64,000 nt of DNA. Source: Singulisphaera sp. GTDB lineage: Bacteria > Planctomycetota > Planctomycetia > Isosphaerales > Isosphaeraceae. The DNA lies in assembly GCA_027451445.1 (NCBI GenBank), contig DAIDJG010000136.1, positions 1 to 64,000 of the forward strand. Direction: 5' to 3'. This document shows, piece after piece, positions 11,472-24,779 of this stretch. Made by a program: the position numbers and the translations under genes. Below the pieces are notes generated by a model. The model did no database searches, was not told where the DNA came from, and worked only from the letters and a program-made list of their open reading frames with translations. Numbering within the stretch: position 1 is the stretch's first letter; each line of letters begins with the position of its first letter.

Positions 11472-12791
11472 TTATGGCTTGATGTCGCCGCTCCTTGCCG
11501 TGTCAAGTGACCTACGGTAAATCTTGCCAAGCCATTTCGACCGTTCGAGGCCGACAACCGCCGTGATAAGGAGCCACGGCAGGAATTGGGACCTTTGCCT
11601 GTAAGCCAAGCCGATGTTGCCGAACATGAGACTATAGAAAAGAATGCGGGTTCCGTAGAAGGCGAGGAAAGGACACATTTCCTCGCGTCGTGTCCGGATC
11701 GTATGGATCAGGCCAGGCACCACGCCGGCGAAGAACAGGCACCACCAGAAGGCCTGTTCGGGAGCCGTGCACCAGAACCGGGGGCTGGCGTGCATGTAGT
11801 TCCAGGGGAATGGTGCGAGTAATAGGTGGACAGAACCATAGAGCAGAGCCGCCGCGAAACCAAAGGGGCTGTGTAAGTCAAAGCCTCTGTTAAATGCCGA
11901 GCCGCTCTGTGATCCAATGGAAACACTTTCTCTAAAACCCGTATAGAATGAAGCAGTGTGGAATTGCCGCTGGGAGTTCAGCATTCCCAGGTGCTGTGGT
12001 TCTTCGAGAATAGAAAACTCGACGACGATCAGCAGCAGGAACACCAGTGCGGCAAGCACTGCGCGGAACCGTCGACAGCCGGCCATCGGTCGAGCTAGAA
12101 CGGGGGCGATGGTGACGACAGCCATGTAGCCGGCATAGTATCGGAATTCGCAAAGGACAGAAACGAGAAGTGTTGTCAGAGAGACCAGCCAGAGATTACA
12201 CGACTTTTTGCGTAAGACGACGACCAGGTAGAGAATCGCAGTCTCGAGCATGAGCACGAAGGGCTCTTTGATCGTCATGGCCGACCAGACGATCAGCGCG
12301 GGGTACACGCACGCCAGGCAACCGGAGTAGAGCGCGATTCGGGGAGAAAAGAGCTCCCGCGCGATCCGGAACGTAAAAACCACGGTGAGTGCGCCACAGC
12401 ACGCGCCGAGGGAGGCGGCTGGGAGTCGCCCAGTGACACCGGTGAGCTGGATGAAAGTGGCCAGCAGCAACCGGTAACCCTCATGTCTCGCCCGGATTTC
12501 CTCCAGCGCAGCGACCGGCAGCCGAAGGATGCCGATTCCACGACCCTTCCACACCTCTTGGAGGTACAGACCGTTAATCCAACCACTACTGTCTTCATCG
12601 CCCGTGATCGCATCGAAGCCGTATTGGTAGATCGCGACCGACGCGGCGAACCGCAGGAAAAAGGCCACCAGAAAGAGGGCGGTCTGCGCGTCCCGCGATT
12701 GCGAACGGTTGAGAAGGATCAGCCAGGCGCATCCAACGCATGCCAACACGAGGGCTGTCAGCAGTCCGGAAGCAAGGTTTAGCTCGTCCAT
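11472..12791 (-). CDS. Polytopic membrane glycosyltransferase-like protein (GT39/PMT-like)
   Basis: 439 residues with about ten hydrophobic helices. An acidic loop after the second or third helix (GDEDSSGWINGLY, near 65) is where GT-C/GT39 enzymes keep their catalytic acidic residue. The layout resembles dolichyl-phosphate-mannose-mannosyltransferase-like proteins that transfer sugars from lipid carriers. It is the last gene of a tightly packed minus-strand run: its start overlaps the stop of the nucleotidyltransferase gene by 13 bases. It could serve exopolysaccharide assembly or sugar transfer to the exported peptide product. Family-level assignment only. Confidence 0.6.
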   Translation of the reverse strand: MDELNLASGLLTALVLACVGCAWLILLNRSQSRDAQTALFLVAFFLRFAASVAIYQYGFDAITGDEDSSGWINGLYLQEVWKGRGIGILRLPVAALEEIRARHEGYRLLLATFIQLTGVTGRLPAASLGACCGALTVVFTFRIARELFSPRIALYSGCLACVYPALIVWSAMTIKEPFVLMLETAILYLVVVLRKKSCNLWLVSLTTLLVSVLCEFRYYAGYMAVVTIAPVLARPMAGCRRFRAVLAALVFLLLIVVEFSILEEPQHLGMLNSQRQFHTASFYTGFRESVSIGSQSGSAFNRGFDLHSPFGFAAALLYGSVHLLLAPFPWNYMHASPRFWCTAPEQAFWWCLFFAGVVPGLIHTIRTRREEMCPFLAFYGTRILFYSLMFGNIGLAYRQRSQFLPWLLITAVVGLERSKWLGKIYRRSLDTARSGDIKP

Positions 12792-14074
12792 GGTGGGATT
12801 CTCGCTCCTGGGTCGGAACGTGATCCTGGTTTGTCCGCGTCAGGGCGGCGGAACAATGTCATCCCGTATCGACCGAGGAGTCGGCCTGGCCGGATCAGGT
12901 AATAGAGGGGGGCGAGTCGCGCTGGGAGCGACAGCGAATGGAGATCGCCCTCGTTCGGCCTGACGGCAAATTCGAGGCTGGATCGGAGTTGGTCCCGCAG
13001 GCGATCCCGACATCGAAGAAGGAACCGTAGGCGATCGAATTGACTCTCAGGGCGCTCGGGGAAGTGGAGGAATCGGTCCCGGATCACGGTCGCCAGTCGA
13101 TTGGCGGTCGAGTCGACACGAGATTTCTGAACAATTTCCGGCGGAAGTCTTGTACCTGTCAATTCCGTGGCAAGCAACAGACCGATGAACAGTGTCCGCC
13201 GGCAACGTTCTTCGTCGGACCGCCGTAGAATCCGGTCCCAATCCCAGGGACCGCCGTTCTCAAGCAGACAGGCGAGGTCGCACACCCACCTGAGACTGTT
13301 CCAATGATGCTTGGCACCGTGAACCGTGAGAAACAGGAGTGTGACTTCCGGAGAGAGGGTGAGGATCGAGCGGCCAGCCAGGGGAACCTGCGCAAGTTCC
13401 TCCCAGACGCGACCTGGGTCGTGCGGAAAGGTGAAGTAGTTCGGGGTAAGCCGCCAATGCAGCTCGACCATGGAGTCCGGGTCCCTTTTGTGAAACACGA
13501 GGACGGATTCAAAACGAGCGTAAGCGGGACCGCGGGACGAGTTAATCGGAAACTCCGGCATGTAACCGCGTGACTCGAGGACCGCTGTCATCGGGATCAA
13601 ATCCGTCGGGCGGACCAGAATGTCGAGGTCGTCAAACGTCCGTAGTCCCAGGTGACCGAACGCCATCAGGGCCAGAGTGGGTCCCTTGTAGGCGATGACC
13701 GGAATCCCTCGTGCCTCCGCCGCGGCGACGATCTGGAGCAGTTCGCCAGCCAGGAACAGATTGCGTCGCGTGTTGTGTCCGAAGGCGGTTCGAAGCTGGC
13801 CGAGTATCAATGGGGGGACGTCTTTCGACCGGAGCGCGGCGAGGTGGTGGACCAGGAGAGGAGTCATGCCGTGACGCGCGGCCAGATCGACCAGGTAATC
13901 CCAATTGACACCTTCGCCGACGAGAGTGCGGATCTGGTCGAGGCGATCGGGTTCGAGCCGAGTGCCACCGCACAAGAGCAGAAGCGCCATCTCGCGGTTC
14001 GGCCCCGCCCTCTTCGGCAATTCCGGCCGCGACGTATCGTTCGCATCGAGGCCAGGAGTAGCGATGGTGCTCAT
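12779..14074 (-). CDS. NTP_transf_5-family nucleotidyltransferase (lasso N-type tailoring candidate)
   Basis: 431 residues. The centre carries AYKGPTLALMAFGHLGLRTF followed by DDLDILVRP, the metal-binding DxD pattern of the NTP_transf_5 family (PF14907), and a later PDSMVELHWRL segment, also typical. In lasso peptide clusters such as pseudomycoidin this family (PsmN) acts after the HPr-kinase-like enzyme and adds sugar to the phosphorylated peptide. Here a kinase of that type is encoded at 20531-21541. The gene starts six bases after the ABC exporter stop and overlaps the next gene, so it is cotranscribed with the exporter. Confidence 0.8.
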   Translation of the reverse strand: MSTIATPGLDANDTSRPELPKRAGPNREMALLLLCGGTRLEPDRLDQIRTLVGEGVNWDYLVDLAARHGMTPLLVHHLAALRSKDVPPLILGQLRTAFGHNTRRNLFLAGELLQIVAAAEARGIPVIAYKGPTLALMAFGHLGLRTFDDLDILVRPTDLIPMTAVLESRGYMPEFPINSSRGPAYARFESVLVFHKRDPDSMVELHWRLTPNYFTFPHDPGRVWEELAQVPLAGRSILTLSPEVTLLFLTVHGAKHHWNSLRWVCDLACLLENGGPWDWDRILRRSDEERCRRTLFIGLLLATELTGTRLPPEIVQKSRVDSTANRLATVIRDRFLHFPERPESQFDRLRFLLRCRDRLRDQLRSSLEFAVRPNEGDLHSLSLPARLAPLYYLIRPGRLLGRYGMTLFRRPDADKPGSRSDPGARIPPWTS

Positions 14075-14080
14075 ACAGGA

Positions 14081-15910
14081 TCACCTTCGCGTCTGTAGCG
14101 ACCAGGAGAGCGCATAGCGTCCGCCCAGGGCCACCAACTCTTCGTGGGTTCCGGTCTCGACAACGCGGCCGTCGTCGAGCACGTGAATGACATCTGCCTG
14201 CATGGCAGTCGTGAAGCGGTGAGTGATCACCACCACCGTCCGCCGGCCGGCCAGGCTTCGAAGCCGGGCCATCCAGTCGGCCTCGGCCCAGGAGTCCATG
14301 GCGCTCGTGGGCTCGTCAAGGAGAATGATCGGCGCGTTGCGGAAGAAAGCCCGGGCCAGAGCGATCCGTTGCCACTCCCCACCGGACAGTTCCACACCTC
14401 CCTCCACTTCCCGTCCCAGAAGAGTATCATATCCCCTGGTCATTCGCTGAACCACCTCGTCAGCCCCTGCTGCCTTGGCCGCAGACTCGAGTTCGTCGCG
14501 AGAAATTGTTGCTGATTGACGGCCCAGCGTGATCGCTTCGGCGATCGTGAAGCTGTACCGCACTGGCTCCTGGAACAACACCGTGATGAGATCACGCAGA
14601 TCATCGAGTCGGAAAGCTCGCAGGTCCACGCCATCAATCTCGATCGAACCCGCGTCCGGGTCGTAGAACCTGCAGACCAACTTCAGGAGCGTGCTCTTGC
14701 CCGCCCCATTGGGACCGACCACCGCGACGATTTGCCCCGCGGGAATCGTGAGATCGAAGTGATCCAGGGCCTTTCGGGCACTGCCAGGATAATGGAAGCA
14801 GACGTTCCGAAAGCGAATCGAATCGATCACCGCCGGCGCGGGGAGGGGCTTCGGAGGATCGATCACGCGGGGTGACAAATCGAGGAATGCAAACAGGTTA
14901 CCCAGAAAGAGACTATTGGCATAGAATTGACCCACTCCATCGAGAAGGCGGCGGACCGCGGCTTCCCCTTGCTGGAACGCCTGGTAGAACAGCGCCAGGT
15001 CACCCAGTGACGCGCGGCCCTTGACGCCCTGCCACACCATCCAACCGACCGAACCACCGGCCACAGCGAGGCCCAGGACGCCCGCCCCGGCTTCGGCCAC
15101 ACTCTCGGCCCGAATCAGCGCGAGCCGTTCGCGCCGGAGCCGTCGACGCAGCTCCTGATAGGCACCCTGAAACAGCGCACCCAACCCGAACAGTCGCAAT
15201 TCGGCGGCCGAGGCACTCTCCGTCAAAAGCCGGTCGTAATAACGCAGTCGGCGCTCTGCGGCCGTGGCCCTCGAGCGCCACTCGTGCTCACGGTAGCTGC
15301 CGTACACGATCGCAACCAGAGCCGGCACGGCGCAAGCTACCACCGCAGCCGGCAACCAGGGGCCGAACGAGACCAGGACCGCCCCGAGTGCAATCAGGGA
15401 GATCGTGCTCTGAAACAATTGGCCAAGCGTGTCAATCAACGCTACCGGTCTATAGCTCGCCTCCACGCGCGCCCTGTGTAACAGGTCGAAGTACTCGGGC
15501 CAGTCGTAGAAGGCCATGTCGGCGGCGATCGAACGTTCATGGACCCTTGCGGTGATCTCGTCTTGGAGCCGCTCGGCCTGGACCGTCCGGACCCACTCTG
15601 ACAGCCCGTGTATGATTTCGAGTGCCAGCAGCGTCGCGATGAGAATCGCGGCCAGGACCAACATGTCCCGAAGATGCGACGGGTCGACGGCGGTTCGAGC
15701 CACGACCGCCTTACCGAGACGATCCACCAATCCCCGAACAACGTACAGTTGGCCGGCGGGAACAACCCCCTGCAACGCCAGGAGAACCACCCAAGCAACC
15801 GACCAACCGCGCGATGAGGCCCACACCAGGCCGAAGACCCGAGGCAAATGGCGGAACTGCGCCGCGATCCGTGCCAGTCGCATAGCCAGGTAGGTCCGTT
15901 GTTCCATCAT
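14081..15910 (-). CDS. ABC exporter, fused permease and ATPase (lasso D-type candidate)
   Basis: 609 residues. The N-terminal ~330 residues form a six-helix type-I exporter membrane domain. The ATPase shows Walker A GPNGAGKST (near 395), signature LSGGEWQRIALARAF (near 495), Walker B IILLDEPTSAMDSWAE and the switch histidine in VVITHRFTTAM. No N-terminal C39 peptidase domain, so it does not cleave leaders itself; that fits a pathway with a separate B2 peptidase. It is packed between the methyltransferase (five-base gap) and the nucleotidyltransferase (six-base gap). The likely cargo is the mature RiPP; polysaccharide or lipid export is the alternative. Confidence 0.85.
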   Translation of the reverse strand: MMEQRTYLAMRLARIAAQFRHLPRVFGLVWASSRGWSVAWVVLLALQGVVPAGQLYVVRGLVDRLGKAVVARTAVDPSHLRDMLVLAAILIATLLALEIIHGLSEWVRTVQAERLQDEITARVHERSIAADMAFYDWPEYFDLLHRARVEASYRPVALIDTLGQLFQSTISLIALGAVLVSFGPWLPAAVVACAVPALVAIVYGSYREHEWRSRATAAERRLRYYDRLLTESASAAELRLFGLGALFQGAYQELRRRLRRERLALIRAESVAEAGAGVLGLAVAGGSVGWMVWQGVKGRASLGDLALFYQAFQQGEAAVRRLLDGVGQFYANSLFLGNLFAFLDLSPRVIDPPKPLPAPAVIDSIRFRNVCFHYPGSARKALDHFDLTIPAGQIVAVVGPNGAGKSTLLKLVCRFYDPDAGSIEIDGVDLRAFRLDDLRDLITVLFQEPVRYSFTIAEAITLGRQSATISRDELESAAKAAGADEVVQRMTRGYDTLLGREVEGGVELSGGEWQRIALARAFFRNAPIILLDEPTSAMDSWAEADWMARLRSLAGRRTVVVITHRFTTAMQADVIHVLDDGRVVETGTHEELVALGGRYALSWSLQTRR

Positions 15911-15915
15911 TTGGG

Positions 15916-17097
15916 CTACTGGCCGTACCGTTCTGAGAGTTCACCGACATGGCCGAGGGCCGCCTCCCAGCGCGGGAAACGCTTGGGAAAGCGCTCCAGG
16001 AGTTCGCGAGCGATCGCGCCCAGCGGCATCGCATTCTGCATTCGCTCGAGGATCAGCCACACGATCTGACCGTCCTCCGTGAGGCGACTAGGCACATGGT
16101 CGGCACACCGCTTTCTCAGTCGCTCAAGGGAGCGAGGGCTACCCAGGAAAGTTGACTGCTTGAAGACAGAACGCTCCCAAACTGGCTCGTTGGGGTCTGC
16201 CGCGCGTGTTTCCCAGGTCCATTGATAGTCGTCACCGACCCGGTCGGCACGGAGAGCGACCGAGACGACGTCGCCAGTCTTGAGGACAAGTGGCCGGGTC
16301 AAGGGAAAGAACGCCTGGGCGTAGACCTGCTCGGACGCCCCAGGGGCGTTCGAGAAGCCAACGCCCTCCACTAATGTTGCATCAAACCAGACGCAGAGAC
16401 CGTGCGCCGTTCCCGTGCGCGACATCGTCAAGGCCACCTCGCCCCGTGCGTCCGTTTCCTCCAAGTCGGTATAGTCCAGCCTCGTCCAGCATTGCGGTTT
16501 GGCAAGCAGTTGTTCCGGTCGGAACCTGGCCTTGCACCAGCCGTTCGTACTGAAGTTCAGAGCAGCCCTCATGTCCAGGCCGAATTCGTTGTCTTCCCAG
16601 GGTCCGACATGCGTCCGGTAGAGGTCCGGCGATTCAACCAGCGCTACCCAGACGGTGTCCTCGCGCGGGATTAGGATGCCACCCGGAGCGAGCAAGCGCC
16701 GGCGGGCGTCGGCAAGACTTCCGAGGTGGCTGCCAAAGAACGGAAGCACTCCCCGCAAGTCCGAGACGATCACATCGGCGCCCTCAGGCAGTGATATCTG
16801 CGTGGAACAGGCCTGGATGAACTCGATCCGATCGGCATAGCCGCAGTCTGTGGCGATTGCCCGGGCCACTTGGATGATCTCGTCCGGTTCGACCGCCACG
16901 ACCTTTCGGGCCCCAAGTTGACAAGCGACCAGAGAAAACAGACCGGAACCCGCACCGAGATCCAGAACCAGAGCACCCGGCTTGACCGAGCGGCGCATGG
17001 CTTCGATGTAAGTGTCCGTGCGATTGCGGTCGGCCACCATCACACCGTGGCCGTGGACGCTATAGATCGACACGCAGGGCCTCCATGTAGGGGGCAT
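15916..17097 (-). CDS. PRMT-like SAM methyltransferase fused to a C-terminal PqqD-like domain
   Basis: 393 residues from the ATG at 17097. The N-terminus has the protein-arginine-methyltransferase-like entry YSVHGHGVMVADRNRTDTY (from residue 12), SAM motif I VLDLGAGSG (44-52) and the acidic loop VVAVEPDE. The PRMT double-glutamate loop is not conserved (VSDLRGVLPFF stands there), so arginine specificity is doubtful. The last ~65 residues (RLTEDGQIVWLILERM, then LGAIARELLERF) resemble a PqqD/RRE-type winged-helix domain. That would let the enzyme bind a RiPP leader directly. It is encoded just upstream of the ABC exporter. A peptide-tailoring O- or N-methyltransferase is inferred. Confidence 0.7.
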   Translation of the reverse strand: MPPTWRPCVSIYSVHGHGVMVADRNRTDTYIEAMRRSVKPGALVLDLGAGSGLFSLVACQLGARKVVAVEPDEIIQVARAIATDCGYADRIEFIQACSTQISLPEGADVIVSDLRGVLPFFGSHLGSLADARRRLLAPGGILIPREDTVWVALVESPDLYRTHVGPWEDNEFGLDMRAALNFSTNGWCKARFRPEQLLAKPQCWTRLDYTDLEETDARGEVALTMSRTGTAHGLCVWFDATLVEGVGFSNAPGASEQVYAQAFFPLTRPLVLKTGDVVSVALRADRVGDDYQWTWETRAADPNEPVWERSVFKQSTFLGSPRSLERLRKRCADHVPSRLTEDGQIVWLILERMQNAMPLGAIARELLERFPKRFPRWEAALGHVGELSERYGQ

Positions 17098-17494
17098 CGC
17101 GGCCTTCGCCTTCGGTCCGTTCCGGGAAGCGACTAGTAAAACGTTGTTCCGTTGTGGAAACCAAGCGCAGCCGGTTAGTGTGACCACAGGCCTTAGCGGT
17201 CTGCCAGAACGCCGAGGACGTCCACACATCGAGCCGCGTTGTCCCCTCGATCATCGCGACAAAATGCTGAAGCAGCGTCTCGCCAAAAGGTCGTGCATGT
17301 TTCTCGAAGGCAATGTCACCGTTCTGTTCCGTCCCCTCGATCCGGTGCTTGTTACCGGCCTTCGCCTTACGATGCATGAGATTCCTCGCAACGCCGCAAC
17401 GATCGGTGGATGAAAGTCCGCGCCCCACGGTAAAACCATTCGATGCAAACATCGCGCTGAACCCGTCGCAGATTCCATTTCGCCGCGTCTGCAT
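17060..17494 (-). CDS. Unassigned protein in the RiPP cluster
   Basis: 144 residues from the ATG at 17494, 40 bases after the oxygenase stop and overlapping the methyltransferase start by 38 bases. Codon use over the last ~100 residues looks like genuine coding sequence (mostly G/C third positions, few rare codons). No signal peptide and no membrane helix. I do not recognise a family. The segment FEKHARPFGETLLQHFVAMI is helical in character, and two Trp residues lie in LDVWTSSAFWQTAK. A start at the internal ATG giving 105 residues is possible. If translated, it would fill an otherwise unusually long gap in the operon. Confidence 0.4.
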   Translation of the reverse strand: MQTRRNGICDGFSAMFASNGFTVGRGLSSTDRCGVARNLMHRKAKAGNKHRIEGTEQNGDIAFEKHARPFGETLLQHFVAMIEGTTRLDVWTSSAFWQTAKACGHTNRLRLVSTTEQRFTSRFPERTEGEGRDAPYMEALRVDL

Positions 17495-17534: not shown

Positions 17535-18473
17535 TCACGTCGACCGAGTGTCTTCGAGCCTTTCCGCGTGGAACCACCCGTTCAAAGTGAAACGGCCATC
17601 GCCAAAAGCCTCTGTCTCGCACTCAACAACAGTCACCTGGTGGAAGTATTCGGAAGGGAAGAAGACAATAGAGTTATCTAAGGGACCGAGTCGCGTGAAC
17701 GCGGTGGTATAGCTGCACGCAGCAGTATCCGAGTCATAGAGCAGCAAATCGCCGCCCGTGAATCGTTTCGGTACGCGATGAAAGTAATAGACATAGCTCA
17801 CCCGCCGATGGCGATGCTTCTCTGCACCTTTGTCCGGGTGGATCTTGTAATGGCTCCCCGTCCGATGGACGGTCATCTGAAGTTCGATCTGACCAATTCG
17901 GAAGGGAGAAACCTGTAAGCGGGGCAGAACGTTTGCAAGCGTGGTCTCAACCCTCGGGAGGAACCACGGAATGAGCTTCTCGATCTCTCTCGACACGACC
18001 CAGGCGGTTCGCGTTTCGGGCTTGTACTCACCCACTTCTCCGATCGTCGCGACCTCGAACTCGGTCTGCTGCTTCAAGGCGAGCGCCAGCACGAGATCGC
18101 GCTCCGCTTGCGAGAGGAAGCCCTCGATCCTGACAAAAGGCGCGGGCCAATCTCCGGGCGGAAGGGCCGTGGGAAAGCGGTCGCGGCCACTCAGAACACA
18201 CTGAAGGTATTGCGCCCGGACGTCATCAGGCCGCAACTCGCTGATGCGCCGGTACGCATTCAAGGCAGCCGCGACATCTCCTCGACAGCGATAGATGGTG
18301 GCCAGCTTCTGAATCGCCGCGAGGTTGTCGGGATCAATCTCGACGGCATGCTTCAACCTCGCCTCCGCCTGCTCCATGAGTCCGCCCCTGGTCAGAACCG
18401 CCGCGGCTAGCTCGTCGAAACTCGTCCGGGCCGTTCTCTCGTCGCCCTCGGGAGGCTTCGATTCCTGATCCAT
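17535..18473 (-). CDS. TPR-2OG/Fe(II)-dependent oxygenase (peptide hydroxylase candidate)
   Basis: 312 residues. Residues about 18-95 are two to three TPR-like helical hairpins (ARLKHAVEIDPDNLAAIQKL). The C-terminal ~200 residues are a prolyl-4-hydroxylase-like double-stranded beta-helix with iron ligands His212-x-Asp214 (in HYKIHPDKG) and His278 (SEYFHQVTVVE), and Arg294 (DGRFTLNGWF) to bind 2-oxoglutarate. All ligands are present, so it should be active. Its position between the GT41 gene and the methyltransferase in the minus-strand run suggests hydroxylation of the RiPP precursor, for example at one of the core prolines. That substrate is inferred. Confidence 0.75.
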   Translation of the reverse strand: MDQESKPPEGDERTARTSFDELAAAVLTRGGLMEQAEARLKHAVEIDPDNLAAIQKLATIYRCRGDVAAALNAYRRISELRPDDVRAQYLQCVLSGRDRFPTALPPGDWPAPFVRIEGFLSQAERDLVLALALKQQTEFEVATIGEVGEYKPETRTAWVVSREIEKLIPWFLPRVETTLANVLPRLQVSPFRIGQIELQMTVHRTGSHYKIHPDKGAEKHRHRRVSYVYYFHRVPKRFTGGDLLLYDSDTAACSYTTAFTRLGPLDNSIVFFPSEYFHQVTVVECETEAFGDGRFTLNGWFHAERLEDTRST

Positions 18474-18547
18474 CGTATTGGTCCTGACGGTAATGGAGTT
18501 TCCTCGAGGTCAGCGCGAGCCGGTCTTCCGCCGGCGAGGAGCTTTTG

Positions 18548-20320
18548 TCAATAAACATGATCGTTCGAAAGCGAACTCGAGTGCTGCTTCACGGCCTCCT
18601 GATAAAAATCCTCAAGGGTCGACAGCGAACAAGTGTCTGAGTAGAAGACACGCGAGCCTTGCTTAAACCGCTCGACAACATTCTGACGCCAAGCATGGTC
18701 CAAACCCAATCTAACCGCGATATTAACATAGTCCGGTTTGTCGCGGGCGATAGTATCCGTCACCCCAAACTGCGTGAGGATTGCGTACGAGTGACGACCG
18801 CGCATGAGCCGCCCAGGCAGAGTCACGATGGGCAGTCCACAGGCGATCGCTTCTACGGTCGTGACGCCTCCTGACCATTCGATCGTATCCAGAAAGACGT
18901 CGGAGAGCAGATTGAGATTCCAATAGTTGAAAATATCTTGTTGCGGCAGAAACACACAGAAATCGTCTACAGATAAACCCATCACAGAGAAGGCCCGTCC
19001 TAGTCGCGTTCGGAATGCCTTGAGTATGTCATGATTCGGCGTCAGGAAGACAAATTGTGCTGAGGGCAATCGCAATGCAATGGCCGGGAACAGGTCGTCG
19101 TGCTGTGGCAGATACTTGAAAGTCGACTGGCACGATAGGTAGAGGATGGCATTGTCTCGCAAGCCGTAATCAGGGCGGCGTTTACCGAGTAACGCCCTCG
19201 GAATGACGGGCTTTTGATAGCAGACACCCACCCCAGGCAAGCAGATCAGTTTTTCCGAATAGTGGTCCTGGCCATTTGGCGGTTCCATCAGCGCGCTCGA
19301 GAGATAATAATTCATGGTTGGCAAGCCGGACGTGATCGGATGATCCCACGCCATGCACTGGATCGGCGCGAGTCGCAAAGCCGCCAGAAGTGTCATCACG
19401 GGCGACCTGCCAATGTCGAGGAAGACGAGGACGTGCAAGCGGTCAGCACGAACGGCTCTCGCCACCTCGTGTACGGAATCGGAGAAATGCGCGAATCGCA
19501 TGCCAGATCGGCGCAACTCGTCGGCGATGCAGTCTGGCGCCTGACCCACCTGGTAAGCATGAACGTCGAACCGAACTCGATCGTGCATGAGCAGCCAACG
19601 TAGAAAGGTCTTCACCACGCTACTATGGTTCAAGAAGTAGGACGACACATAACCGATCCGCAGTTTACCATTGAGGCCGGGCATCGGGGGCGTGTCCGCC
19701 CACTCCGGAAAGTTGGCAGCCACGATCCGATGAACGAGATTGCCATAACGCTGTTGTAACTCGAGGTCGTTCTCTCCCTGATATCCAAGCAACACGTTCC
19801 TGTGCGCCGATACAGCGTTCAGTGCGTCGCGACGCGACTCGGGTGTTTCCAGCGAAATCCTGGCGGCGAGCGCGGACAGCCCGTCCCAGAACCGTCGGCG
19901 GTAATACCCGATTTCCTCCACAGTTTGGTAAATCACCGGCAAGATCAGTGACTCTTTCATCCGGATGGCCAGGTCATGCGGGAAGACGCGCAACGCCTGA
20001 TGGATGGCGTCGATGGCGTCCTGAGTCCGGTTGAGTTTCCTGAGTTTCTCGATGTACGCGTAGTGCAGTTTTACGGAGAAACGACAACGCGTTAGGCCTT
20101 CGCGCAGAACGCTGAGGGCTGTTTCGTCTTCCATTAACGCTGCGTGGTGACCCGCGAGATGCAGGTAGATCTCCGGATTCCGTTCATCTCGCGCCAGGGC
20201 CCTTCGTCTCTCCTCGATCAATTGCGTCCAGACTTCCCGAAAACAACGATCACACTCGTCCGATTCTTTCCCATAGATCTTTTGAAGGGACGGTCGACTT
20301 ACGTCACGCTCAGAAAACAT
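18548..20320 (-). CDS. TPR-GT41 (SPINDLY/OGT-like) glycosyltransferase
   Basis: 590 residues from the ATG at 20320; a 26-residue upstream extension is possible but lacks a ribosome site. The first ~170 residues are TPR-like (RNPEIYLHLAGHHAALMEDE, TQDAIDAIHQALRVFP). From about 200 the protein matches the Glyco_transf_41 pattern: LRIGYVSSYFLNHSSVVKTF, PVMTLLAALRLAPIQCMAWDHPITSG, YLSCQSTFKYLPQHDDLF and SDVFLDTIEWSGGVTTVEAIACGLPIVTL. Such enzymes transfer GlcNAc, fucose or hexose to Ser/Thr (or Asn in HMW1C relatives) of proteins. Placed between the peptide kinase and the oxygenase, it may glycosylate the RiPP. A general protein O-glycosyltransferase role is the alternative. Confidence 0.75.
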   Translation of the reverse strand: MFSERDVSRPSLQKIYGKESDECDRCFREVWTQLIEERRRALARDERNPEIYLHLAGHHAALMEDETALSVLREGLTRCRFSVKLHYAYIEKLRKLNRTQDAIDAIHQALRVFPHDLAIRMKESLILPVIYQTVEEIGYYRRRFWDGLSALAARISLETPESRRDALNAVSAHRNVLLGYQGENDLELQQRYGNLVHRIVAANFPEWADTPPMPGLNGKLRIGYVSSYFLNHSSVVKTFLRWLLMHDRVRFDVHAYQVGQAPDCIADELRRSGMRFAHFSDSVHEVARAVRADRLHVLVFLDIGRSPVMTLLAALRLAPIQCMAWDHPITSGLPTMNYYLSSALMEPPNGQDHYSEKLICLPGVGVCYQKPVIPRALLGKRRPDYGLRDNAILYLSCQSTFKYLPQHDDLFPAIALRLPSAQFVFLTPNHDILKAFRTRLGRAFSVMGLSVDDFCVFLPQQDIFNYWNLNLLSDVFLDTIEWSGGVTTVEAIACGLPIVTLPGRLMRGRHSYAILTQFGVTDTIARDKPDYVNIAVRLGLDHAWRQNVVERFKQGSRVFYSDTCSLSTLEDFYQEAVKQHSSSLSNDHVY

Positions 20321-20530
20321 GATCGCTGCCTCAACAATCAAAACCAGAGACAGTTGCATTGATCCTGGGTTAGCGTGGTAACGTCCGGACCGACGCATCG
20401 GAAACGCGATCCGCTTCCCGTCCTTGCGATGAGGCTCTTGAACCAGCCCGCAGAAAAGCGAGGGGAGGTCGAGTCAGGGGTGCCGTTGAATGAAGTTGGG
20501 ACGACGGACGGCTCGAGCCGGGCGGCAATG

Positions 20531-21541
20531 TCAGCATTCGGCGCGACGTTCCCCAAACCTATCCGGCTCCGTCAGGTGCTGTAGATCATCAACGATGACT
20601 TGGCACAGTTTCGGTAATAACGCCGAACTCGCATGAGCAGTGACTTGCCGAACGGGCACGCTGCGCATGAGCTTACCCAACAACTCGAATTCTCGGCCAC
20701 GCATCCCACTGTCGAGCAAATAATTTGAGTATGAGTTGGCCACAAGCGCTAATAAGCCTTCGCGGTCGTCGAGGGCGTTGGCGTGCGGGGCCGATATGTC
20801 ATCCCTCCGCGGACCAAGGACATAAACAGCACCCAAAGGAAGACCCTGTGACTGGAAACTAAAGGTGGAGTCGTTCAGGTCAAGGTAACACTTTTCCCAA
20901 TTCGGTATCAACCGAGGCAAGGCGTCGGGGCTACCGAACAATCTACTGACCGAATCCGGCCAGAGCCGGAGACGCGGGTTGCCGGGGTGAACAGCGAGAC
21001 CACTTACTCGTTCTTCAAGGGCGACGATGTCATCGGAAAGCACTGGGAAACCAAGCTGCGCAAAAGCTGCCGCTGTCGTGGATTTGCCGGCCTCGCCCGG
21101 TCCGACCAAGGCCACCGCCCGGCCGCGCACGGCAACAGCACTGGCATGCAGGCAAACGACGTCCCGAAGACGCAGCACAAATCCCATGACGGGCCCAAGC
21201 AGATATGTCGCAGTGTCTTCAATTGGAACGGACGCTGGCCAGTTGGCCCAGATTTGGCTGCCGGATCGGTCGAGCAGGAATTCGATCCTGTCGTCTGCGT
21301 AGAGAAAACGGAAAAACCTACCGGAGAAGAGCTTCCATACTCGAAGTTCCGGCTCGTTGACTTTGCCGACCGTATCACTTGCGTAGACCAATTGAGGATC
21401 GGAATCGCTCAGATCCATCACGCCGGACGGCCTGCCCCCCAGGTGAATCTGCACATCAATTCCAGACTGTTCCGACGCTGTGAGGCCGGGGATAGGAAGG
21501 TCCGCCCCAATCCTTAGGCCGAATGCAAATGAGACGAACAC
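20531..21541 (-). CDS. HPr-kinase-like peptide kinase (lasso K-type)
   Basis: 336 residues from a GTG at 21541 with GGAAGG nine bases upstream; the encoded start FVSFAFGLRIGADLPIPGL fits this family better than the longer TTG start at 21619. Residues about 132-135 are the family LHAS motif; Walker A is GPGEAGKST (147-155); LSDDIVAL follows at 168-175. The HPr serine-kinase C-terminal domain is shared with PadeK (paeninodin) and PsmK (pseudomycoidin), which phosphorylate the C-terminal Ser of lasso precursors. Here the gene directly follows the precursor gene. The predicted peptide ends in Thr-His, so the phosphorylated residue must be Thr52, Ser44, Ser31 or another Thr. Confidence 0.8.
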   Translation of the reverse strand: MFVSFAFGLRIGADLPIPGLTASEQSGIDVQIHLGGRPSGVMDLSDSDPQLVYASDTVGKVNEPELRVWKLFSGRFFRFLYADDRIEFLLDRSGSQIWANWPASVPIEDTATYLLGPVMGFVLRLRDVVCLHASAVAVRGRAVALVGPGEAGKSTTAAAFAQLGFPVLSDDIVALEERVSGLAVHPGNPRLRLWPDSVSRLFGSPDALPRLIPNWEKCYLDLNDSTFSFQSQGLPLGAVYVLGPRRDDISAPHANALDDREGLLALVANSYSNYLLDSGMRGREFELLGKLMRSVPVRQVTAHASSALLPKLCQVIVDDLQHLTEPDRFGERRAEC

Positions 21542-21754
21542 AGTTCCAAACCTTCCACGAAACTTCGACGTCCATCTCAAAAAGTGGAAAGGACGGGGTT
21601 GGTGCGGGCCTGAAAGCAAACGGCCAAACGCGAACGACGAAAATGGCCATTAGAGACCATTGATCGCGTATGCCGCTCTCCAGGTCTACCTAACTATCAA
21701 ATCCGTCGCTTCCCTGTTTTGCACTTTGCCAAATGAAATCGAGTGTGCCGCATC

Positions 21755-21916
21755 CTAATGCGTGCGCACAGGCGTAGCGCCCATGGAGGGAATGGCGTTG
21801 TCCGGGGTAAGCCCCGCGTTAGGACTGTGCCGGGTGAGATCCTTCAGCCCGCCGTAGACCTGCAACTGCGGCGCGGTGTAGGGTTTTTTGGTTCTGTTCT
21901 TCATTTCGGACGCCAT
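21755..21916 (-). CDS. Lasso-type RiPP precursor peptide
   Basis: 53 residues, too short for usual gene finders. AGGAGAGG lies seven bases before the ATG at 21916. Residues 10-28 read KKPYTAPQLQVYGGLKDLT, the leader pattern Y-x2-P-x-L-x2-YG-x-L-x2-LT recognised by PqqD-like B1 proteins in lasso pathways. The C-terminal part (29-53) contains a single acidic residue, Asp39, three prolines before position 44 and ends VRTH. If a lasso ring forms, Asp39 must be the acceptor and Ser31 gives a nine-residue ring and a 23-residue product. The usual rule of Thr at leader position -2 would instead start the core at His30, putting Asp39 at position 10. The gene sits between cyclase and kinase genes. Confidence 0.85.
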   Translation of the reverse strand: MASEMKNRTKKPYTAPQLQVYGGLKDLTRHSPNAGLTPDNAIPSMGATPVRTH

Positions 21917-22157: not shown

Positions 22158-24017
22158 TTACGCCCGTACTCGAGAAGGCGTCTCGTGCGTTGCTGTCGCT
22201 TGTTTTTGCGAGAGTTTCAAGAGCCAACGGTTGAAGTTAAGGGGACGGAAAACCCACCAGGCGGAAGACGCGTCAAACGCTTGCTCCCTATAAGCTTTCA
22301 AGTCAACGTAATGGTCGAGTCGGGGTGCCGAGACTAGCTTTCCGACGATGGGTCGGTGGCCCTGATCGAGTCGCTCCCGGATGGGATCACCGGCAAAGGG
22401 GGTCTTCGGCCGGAGTCGCACCGCATCGGGTAAAATACCGTTCATGGAACTCCGAAGCAACCGCTTGTTGAGACACCAAGGGATCGGTGGTACGGCCAAC
22501 ACGTAGCGGACGATCCGAAGGTCGAAGAATGGATGATTGGACTCGATCGGGACACGTGTTACGTTCGCGCTCTCAGACTCAAAAAAAAACGACCAATGCG
22601 GTGACGTCACGAGTCGGTAAGCGTCCGGCCGAACGGGATGGACCGAGGGAAACCGCTCGTTTTCCATGGACGACCACCGATCGCGAAGATTGAGCCGGGC
22701 CTCGAACGCCCGGTTTAACCACGGCGGGTAGGTCGAGGACAAAGGGTGTTTCCCAACGAGGCGACGTAGCCGTTGACGAACCGCCAGCTTTGGCAGATCG
22801 CGGTGGGAGCGGAGCCAGTGCCCGGCGTCCGTGATCACCCGGCCGAAGCGCCGCTGGCTACATTGAGAGATCAGATGCCGCTGCATCGGGAACCGGAACA
22901 GGGCATCCGGCCCCTGGCCGCTCAGTACGACATCCCCACCAACTGCTCGACCGCGAGAAATGTTGGCGCCCAATGCAGGGAGGGGATTGTCTGCGGGTTC
23001 GGGTGTCCATGCCTCCGGAGAATCCCAGCCATCGTAGGGCTGATACCCATCCGCAACGAGGTATTCGATGGGAATACCGAGAGCCTCGGCGACCAGGCCC
23101 GAGTAATACCGCTCCCGATCAGGAATGAGCGAGTCATAAACGACCGTGTGGGCCCTGAGCTCGAACGGTCTCGAACGCTCCGAGAGTACGTGTTGGGCGG
23201 TCGCCGCGATGGAGGACGAGTCGAGCCCACCGCTCATGGAAACCACGACCCGGTCGAAATTCCGCACGCGATCCGAAACGGCCGTCCGCAATAACTCCCG
23301 AAAGCGCTCGACGTATTCCTCGGGTTGGCCGTACCGAATCTCTTCGTCGATCGGAAGAGTCCAGTATCGACGAATGCCCAGGCGGCCGGACGACCACGTC
23401 AAGGTGTGCGCGGCAGGGAGGCGCTGGATGTCCTCGAAGGCTGTCGTCGCGGGATCCTGGTTACTCTCGAAGAGCAGGAAGTCACCAATCGCCTGGTCGT
23501 TGAGTCTGTCCGACACACTGGGGTGGAGACGCACACAGTCGAGCGAATTGCTCAGCACCAGTGTGGCGCCGACCCGCGCATAAAAGAACGGCCTCACGCC
23601 AAAATGGTCGCGTGCGCCGAACAGGCGGCGGTTCCGCTCGTCCCAAATCACGAAGGAGAAATCGCCGAGCAGGTGCTCAACGCACGACTCTCCCCAGGCC
23701 CGGTAGGCGTGGAGGATGAGTTCGGCGTCCGTTGCGCTCGGAGCGACCAACTCTCCCCGAGCCGCCATGCCTGCCAAAAGCTCGGCGCGGCCGTCCACGC
23801 GGGCGTCCGCAACGATCCAGACATCGCCATCGAGGGTGCAGGGTCCCGCCCATTCAGGGGAAACCCTCAGAGGCGCATTGCCGAGCCCAACCGAGCCGGC
23901 CAGCCGGATCCCCAGTTGGCCGGTCCCGGCCACGTCGACGTTCGCGGTCATCCGACCGAGCAATTCCGGGTCGACCGGCGCGTCGTCCAGGTTGTGGATT
24001 CCGACGAAGCCGCTCAT
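22158..24017 (-). CDS. Asparagine-synthetase-like lasso cyclase (C protein)
   Basis: 619 residues. The N-terminal glutamine-amidotransferase-like half begins MSGFVGIHN: Ser replaces the catalytic Cys2 of true asparagine synthetases, so it cannot hydrolyse glutamine by the normal route. GDFSFVIWDERNRRLFGARD follows as in the family. The C-terminal synthetase half keeps the PP-loop SGGLDSSS (near 265), so it can adenylate a carboxylate. This is the arrangement of lasso cyclases, which activate an Asp/Glu side chain of the core. The ATG overlaps the B2 stop (ATGA), showing translational coupling with B2. Confidence 0.85.
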   Translation of the reverse strand: MSGFVGIHNLDDAPVDPELLGRMTANVDVAGTGQLGIRLAGSVGLGNAPLRVSPEWAGPCTLDGDVWIVADARVDGRAELLAGMAARGELVAPSATDAELILHAYRAWGESCVEHLLGDFSFVIWDERNRRLFGARDHFGVRPFFYARVGATLVLSNSLDCVRLHPSVSDRLNDQAIGDFLLFESNQDPATTAFEDIQRLPAAHTLTWSSGRLGIRRYWTLPIDEEIRYGQPEEYVERFRELLRTAVSDRVRNFDRVVVSMSGGLDSSSIAATAQHVLSERSRPFELRAHTVVYDSLIPDRERYYSGLVAEALGIPIEYLVADGYQPYDGWDSPEAWTPEPADNPLPALGANISRGRAVGGDVVLSGQGPDALFRFPMQRHLISQCSQRRFGRVITDAGHWLRSHRDLPKLAVRQRLRRLVGKHPLSSTYPPWLNRAFEARLNLRDRWSSMENERFPSVHPVRPDAYRLVTSPHWSFFFESESANVTRVPIESNHPFFDLRIVRYVLAVPPIPWCLNKRLLRSSMNGILPDAVRLRPKTPFAGDPIRERLDQGHRPIVGKLVSAPRLDHYVDLKAYREQAFDASSAWWVFRPLNFNRWLLKLSQKQATATHETPSRVRA

Positions 24018-24520
24018 GAGAGCGCCATTTCTCGAGGGAGCAGGGGCCGGTCGAACGACGGAAAACGTACCGCGACGTCAGCGCGGTCGTTGAGCACTCG
24101 ACCCAGGTGCTCCACCCAGGCGTGTGCCTCGAACTGCCCTGACGCTTTCGTAACCCCCACCCTCAAGTCGCCAGGGATACCACGCGCCCGGAGCAGGCAA
24201 CACAAGGTCAGCGATCGATGTAAACAGTTGGCGCGAAAAGGACCCAGGACGGCGATGGCGTGTACGATCTCGCTCGTCCTGACGGCGGCCCTCACCCGGG
24301 AGCGCCCCTCTTCGGCGCCGGCGGTATCCCCCAGGGGTTCCGCGGGGAGGCGCGATGTGAGCCCGTCAAGGAACTTTCGGCAACGATTGAAACCCAGAAG
24401 CCTCTGCCCCAGAATCGTCAGCGGCAGGATCAACGCGGCCTGGACGGCGAGCCGCCGATCGTTCCGTGGGAGGCGCAAGTATCGACCGTAGAGGTTAATC
24501 AACGAGCGTAACCAGGCCAT
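24014..24520 (-). CDS. Lasso B2-type leader peptidase (transglutaminase-like)
   Basis: 168 residues, the usual size for a free-standing B2 protein (PF13471, Transglut_core3). The catalytic triad is visible: Cys99 in RANCLHRSLTL, His133 in FEAHAWVEHLG and Asp145 in RVLND. The N-terminal ~50 residues form a helix with hydrophobic character. It cleaves the leader from the precursor after B1 presents it. The gene overlaps B1 upstream (26 bases) and the cyclase gene downstream (four bases). Confidence 0.85.
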   Translation of the reverse strand: MAWLRSLINLYGRYLRLPRNDRRLAVQAALILPLTILGQRLLGFNRCRKFLDGLTSRLPAEPLGDTAGAEEGRSRVRAAVRTSEIVHAIAVLGPFRANCLHRSLTLCCLLRARGIPGDLRVGVTKASGQFEAHAWVEHLGRVLNDRADVAVRFPSFDRPLLPREMALS

Positions 24521-24779
24521 GCGTCACCAGATCCTCGATCAATTTGCCGAGATCCGCCCGTAGCCGCTCCGCCTCGACATCGTACTCATCCAGCAAACGC
24601 GTATACGCCGCCTCAATCGATGGACTCTCCACGATGGCCTTCCACATCGAGGTTCCCACTTCGTCCAGCCCGAGATAGTTCTCGCTCTCAAGGTTGAGAA
24701 ACACCATCTCCCCTTGAAGTTCTTGCAGCAGAACGTTTTCAGGAACGGAGACACGTGCTGTGAATGAAATCGAGTCCAT
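24495..24779 (-). CDS. PqqD-like RiPP recognition element (lasso B1 protein)
   Basis: 94 residues, standard length for B1/PqqD-family proteins. The sequence shows the family features: an N-terminal strand region with VPENVLLQELQGEMVFLNLE, SENYLGLDEVGTSMWKAI, and a winged-helix end ERLRADLGKLIEDLVTHGLV. It binds the leader motif of the precursor and delivers it to B2 and the cyclase. First gene of the minus-strand cluster; overlaps B2 by 26 bases. Confidence 0.85.
   Translation of the reverse strand: MDSISFTARVSVPENVLLQELQGEMVFLNLESENYLGLDEVGTSMWKAIVESPSIEAAYTRLLDEYDVEAERLRADLGKLIEDLVTHGLVTLVD

Follow-up and report, generated by a model that had tools for sequence, protein, structure and literature searches.

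A PRMT-related methyltransferase with a helix-only PqqD-like C-terminal domain in a lasso peptide gene cluster

The window, the whole 64,000-nucleotide stretch of Singulisphaera sp. DNA that was analysed, carries a lasso peptide gene set on its minus strand. The same-strand neighbours of the methyltransferase gene comprise a precursor, B1, B2, a cyclase, a kinase, a GT41 protein, an oxygenase, an ABC exporter and a PF14907 protein. The enzyme is thus coded together with precursor, B1, B2 and cyclase, as expected of a lasso-tailoring enzyme, and the cluster setting assumed in the initial annotation is correct. The features of the locus are as follows.

24495..24779, minus strand: B1, a complete PqqD/RRE protein (PF05402, positions 1–67 of 67)
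24014..24520, minus strand: B2 leader peptidase (NF033537, above cut-off)
22158..24017, minus strand: lasso cyclase C, Asn synthase type (family matches)
21755..21916, minus strand: lasso precursor with a YxxPxL leader (NF033528, E 0.001, under cut-off; resembles the relatives' precursors)
20531..21619, minus strand: HprK-related kinase (TIGR04352, E 8e-8, under cut-off; relatives at many related loci)
18548..20398, minus strand: GT41 (O-GlcNAc transferase-like) protein with TPR (PF13844, E 9e-31)
17535..18473, minus strand: TPR and 2OG-Fe(II) oxygenase protein (PF13640, E 5e-16)
15916..17073, minus strand: PRMT-like SAM methyltransferase gene, probable extent (open frame, family matches, GGAGG, relatives' starts)
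16738..16779, minus strand: degenerate double-Glu loop of the methyltransferase, SDLRGVLPFFGSHL (alignment with 16 domain-less PRMT-like relatives)
16147..16671, minus strand: PRMT-type β-barrel, residues ∼143–317 (PF22528 match; VIA-align to PRMT8)
15919..16092, minus strand: C-terminal PqqD-like three-helix domain, residues 336–393 (profile, HHalign and structural evidence)
14081..15910, minus strand: ABC exporter (PF00005, E 3e-31)
12779..14074, minus strand: PF14907 nucleotidyltransferase-like protein (PF14907, E 4e-63)

The minus-strand frame of the methyltransferase is open over 15916–17229 and ends at 15916. It was initially read from the ATG at 17097, giving a protein of 393 residues (P0002), and the residue numbers 143–317 and 336–393 used here follow that numbering. 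A GTG at 17073 is the likelier start, because GGAGG lies six bases upstream of it and the relatives start at the same point. The real gene is therefore probably 15916..17073, with 385 codons for amino acids, and an end at 17097 is about eight codons too far.

The relatives' leaders end one residue past a conserved LT; if the same holds for the window's precursor (21755–21916), its ring-forming Asp would lie at core position 10. In most of the relatives' precursors it is at position 9, and the value for the window would mean that the ring is unusual or that cleavage occurs at a shifted site. The precursors compared here mostly have Lys or Arg in the tail, and offer a Ser or Thr and a C-terminal carboxylate. 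At one related locus (L076:7729-8274) two similar lasso precursors stand in tandem ahead of the kinase gene. The window's GT41-type and TPR-2OG oxygenase genes (17535–20398) had no best BLAST match at 1e-3 in 40 relative loci or in L005, a locus titled Acidobacteria.

Relatives of the methyltransferase were found at E ≤ 1e-15 in 37 of the 392 genomes from the window's phylum, counting the window's own genome, which was also the single genome with a match at 1e-10 among the 45 of the window's family. L005 belongs to the genome G435, in whose phylum the family profile matched 28 of 297 genomes at 1e-30. The relatives are of two kinds, those where the match reaches the C-terminus and those where it ends near residue 290, and the architecture with the C-terminal tail recurs in this second phylum group. 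When viral contigs were scanned, the yield was one short match (L095) and no relative of use. The 40 neighbourhoods taken for comparison are a chosen subset of the matching genomes.

The Pfam scan of the methyltransferase gave PRMT_C (PF22528, E 7e-10), PrmA (2e-9), Methyltransf_25 and general SAM methyltransferase models. A full-length model built from two sequences (mean pLDDT 42.9) served for the barrel match alone; in VIA-align this low-confidence model gave its highest score among PRMTs with PRMT8 (Z 13.6, 141 aligned, rmsd 5.4). The protein belongs to the class I SAM methyltransferases; its PRMT-type barrel is followed by an additional C-terminal domain of ∼58 residues. The PRMT-like SAM enzyme proposed from the sequence alone is thereby borne out. 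PRMT1/3/8 and CARM1 share with it the SAM domain, the PRMT barrel and, in the alignment, the HG...WF barrel motif. Unlike these enzymes, it lacks the double-Glu and THW loops, carries the extra C-terminal domain and is found in a lasso context.

Loss of the double-Glu loop had also been noted at the outset, and the alignment with the relatives agrees: where the pattern is SE..G....E the window reads SDLRGVLPFF, and QVY occupies the position aligned with THW. The first Glu is kept in all 16 of the domain-less relatives and the second in 15 of them (L034 has Asp). In 12 of the 21 relatives that have the tail domain and whose loop is covered, the first Glu is replaced by Asp. Other domain-bearing relatives have TE at the loop without the pattern (L022–L024), no acid at the loop position (L085–L087) or a retained SE..EE (L082–L084). 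Since L022–L024 and L082–L084 keep the first Glu, double-Glu loss is not universal in the family. A link between loop type and Lys or Arg in the precursor tail was considered and dropped, as the precursors (about a dozen) were too few; the window itself does not fit.

In PRMTs, the double-Glu and THW loops grip arginine. Judged by its sequence, the window enzyme descends from PRMT-like enzymes and retains their SAM site and barrel. With both loops lost, the enzyme most likely transfers its methyl to some group other than an arginine guanidine bound in the classical way; classical arginine methylation by this enzyme is unlikely, a statement that applies to the window protein rather than to the family as a whole.

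The last ∼65 residues had been likened to a PqqD winged helix. In Pfam, PF05402 does not match the window protein at E ≤ 1, so that the family cut-off is not reached. An alignment of 20 tails (∼67 columns; the near copies L024 and L083 were excluded) contains a fully invariant Pro, with L, L, F, A and V close to invariant. When these tails were scanned singly, PqqD was the most frequent family, albeit weakly (NCBIfam PqqD matched eight of the 20, at best 0.0015, and Pfam PqqD three, at best 0.019). One tail matched HTH_47 at 0.00036, better than PqqD, and other tails matched unrelated families.

The profile of this alignment gave 20 matches at E ≤ 1e-4 in the 297 genomes: 15 tails of the methyltransferase family, one of them (L112) in a short open frame that covers barrel and tail, and five small proteins. 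All five of the latter are PF05402 proteins above the cut-off. These proteins of ∼118 residues (L113–L117), from the phylum of G435, bridge the tail to PF05402; they resemble mutual orthologues and hence cannot be counted as independent. When 22 tails were aligned with the five in HHalign, the probability was 95.8%, compared with 0.2% for the reversed control, and none of 100 column shuffles reached the same score. Against 18 lasso B1 proteins the probability was ∼12%, a poor fit which indicates that the tail is no close copy of B1. This comparison had at first pointed to no relationship, a view overturned by the genome-wide profile search. Against the model of the five PqqD proteins, the tail of the window protein reaches only 1.3 bits, and the PqqD link is therefore a property of the family. 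In PDB sequences, the tail profile found PqqD 3g2b at E 0.4, ranked under unrelated matches at 0.02 to 0.2. By these profile comparisons, the tail is homologous to the helical half of PqqD.

The tail was also modelled alone, from a two-sequence alignment with L005 as the second row (mean pLDDT 82.9, helix blocks >90). The model has four helices and no strands. In Foldseek, the lasso B1 structure 6jx3_B had the top probability (0.75, rmsd 1.2, 46 columns), with all E-values ≥1. VIA-align re-alignment of 42 chains also placed 6jx3_B first (Z 6.2, 62 aligned, rmsd 2.8), with PqqD 3g2b at rank three (Z 5.3, 49 aligned, rmsd 2.2); small helical domains can reach such scores by chance. The comparison with B1 and PqqD that had been proposed for the C-terminus thus finds a lasso B1, 6jx3_B, as the nearest structure and matches helices only.

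A small helix bundle could resemble PqqD by chance convergence. The missing PF05402 match for the window sequence, the tail that prefers HTH_47, the indecisive Z of 6.2 and the weak match to the B1 profile would all fit such an origin, but the only other genome-wide matches of the tail profile are PqqD proteins (five of five) and no shuffle attained the HHalign score. We consider convergence very improbable.

The HHalign match begins just before the first helix of PqqD, and only the three PqqD helices align. A linker of 19–21 residues, predicted to be helical, separates the invariant Pro from the last barrel motif in all 22 full domains, and its fixed length leaves no space for the PqqD β-hairpin (β1–β2). 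The Pro itself, invariant in the same 22 domains, sits at the place of the leader-pairing strand β3. Taken together, homology, model and linker length define the tail as the helical half of PqqD, with three helices kept and the β-hairpin gone. Compared with PqqD/RRE proteins (PF05402; lasso B1 6JX3, PqqD 3G2B), which are its best structural neighbours and whose three helices align with it in order, the tail lacks the β1–β3 sheet in the model and has the short fixed linker and the invariant Pro in the place of β3. Of the original description, the PqqD relation stands, over ∼58 residues and by the whole-family profile, and the complete winged helix does not.

According to the available part of PMC12710340, the strict definition of a RiPP recognition element (RRE) is a βββ-ααα order, the peptide-binding cleft is made by α3 and β3, and many false positives have only part of the fold, for example a helical bundle. 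The tail departs from this order, with four helices and no strand in the two-sequence model and the 19–21-residue linker in 22 of 22 domains. These features bear on the original proposal that the tail is a second, working RRE which binds the leader alone and lets the methyltransferase act independently of B1. The PqqD homology and the first rank of B1 6jx3_B would suit that proposal, as would the existence of RREs fused to tailoring enzymes (PMC12710340, available part). The strandless model, a linker too short for β1–β2, the Pro at β3 and the unmatched βββ-ααα order speak against it, as do the presence of B1, the sole PF05402 match in the genome, within the cluster and the known lasso tailoring reactions aided by B1 (PMC10368454, available part). 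We judge a second, independent RRE to be distinctly unlikely; a tail that is half a PqqD leaves the claim of an independent leader-binder unsupported.

Locus context was scored with profiles of B1, B2, cyclase, kinase and PF14907, and for the window by its family scans. B1, B2, cyclase or kinase genes occurred at 21 of the 23 loci with the domain, 16 of which had a cyclase or B2, and at none of the 16 loci without it. The two domain-bearing loci without such genes are L005, where the contig begins within the gene, and L027, a 16.5 kb contig with the tail in a shifted frame and none of the searched lasso genes. This count leaves out L021, a lasso locus where the enzyme ends short of the tail, L030, which has B1 and part of a tail, and the tailless lasso locus L088. 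On a tree of 41 rows a single origin of the tail was not recovered; five changes were needed, at least two of them forced.

At L022:11954-15614, L023:1585-5397 and L024:1-2848 an HprK-like kinase, the tailed methyltransferase and a PF14907 protein adjoin one another. L022 and L023 also have a PqqD/B1-like gene, and no lasso cyclase or B2 is seen on the three contigs. The tail and the kinase module therefore co-occur even where no cyclase is seen, on contigs that are short. In L030:6969-9414, the partial-tail PRMT-like methyltransferase stands beside a PqqD protein and a radical SAM/SPASM protein, a RiPP-like setting. The lasso cluster at L088:9071-14797 codes for a PRMT-like methyltransferase with no tail and with the loop TE..DE; the precursor of this cluster has Arg in its tail.

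The tail might instead be purely structural, packing on the PRMT barrel or forming a dimer, with no role in substrate recognition. PRMTs act as dimers, and most of the near-invariant positions of the tail hold Pro or a hydrophobic residue (P, L, L, F, A, V), as in a packing core. Its PqqD relation and its occurrence almost only at lasso or kinase-module loci favour a role linked to the precursor, however, and 16 relatives manage without the tail. We regard a purely structural tail as unlikely.

Among known lasso methyltransferases, StspM/LasF, which methylates the C-terminal carboxyl, resembles the window enzyme in being coded in a lasso cluster and in probably acting on the linear precursor (available parts of PMC8498205 and PMC9266682). 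The same parts describe StspM as modelled on mitomycin 7-O-methyltransferase, with a catalytic centre of His242/Glu296, and not on a PRMT. LihM and TceM are SAM-dependent enzymes that tailor lasso peptides, as proposed for the window enzyme, but they are PIMT homologues and TceM requires the folded lasso (PMC9266682 and PMC13001092, available parts). The window protein gave no PIMT (PCMT) family match at E ≤ 1 in Pfam. In the open-access literature searched, we recognised no description of a PRMT-like lasso methyltransferase or of such a tail fusion.

On balance we think it probable, by a modest measure, that the enzyme is a lasso-tailoring methyltransferase derived from PRMTs, with altered chemistry and with its helix-only PqqD tail serving as a docking element on the precursor. 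The tail would bring the enzyme to the linear precursor; contact with the B1–leader complex is the most likely route, rather than the classical pairing of a strand with the leader. Methylation of the core would then precede leader removal, alongside the HprK-like kinase, and the candidate acceptors are a Lys or Arg side chain in the tail of the core, the C-terminal carboxylate or a phospho-Ser/Thr group. Several results weigh against this reading: the chance-range VIA-align score and the want of a Foldseek E-value <1, a C-terminal model that rests on two sequences, the poor fit of the lasso B1 profile (∼12% in HHalign), the domain without lasso genes at L027 and the lasso enzyme without a domain at L088, the first Glu retained in L022–L024 and L082–L084, and the tree.

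The available parts of PMC8498205, PMC9266682 and PMC10368454 give the linear precursor as the substrate for methylation by StspM and for phosphorylation, hydroxylation and epimerisation, several of which B1 speeds; for the last three, PMC10368454 describes help from B1 itself. That lasso tailoring enzymes reach the precursor via contacts with B1 is put forward as a hypothesis in the available part of PMC9266682. A more specific proposal, which we offer tentatively and hold to be possible rather than probable, is that this PRMT-derived lasso family has left arginine chemistry and that its PqqD remnant reads the precursor through B1, in a half-RRE to RRE contact, and not through the leader itself.

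If the docking reading is correct, a PRMT-derived methyltransferase would join the enzymes of lasso tailoring, and a helix-only PqqD derivative would join the short list of RiPP docking domains outside strict RRE definitions. The enzyme makes the B1-contact hypothesis of PMC9266682, as worded in its available part, open to test.
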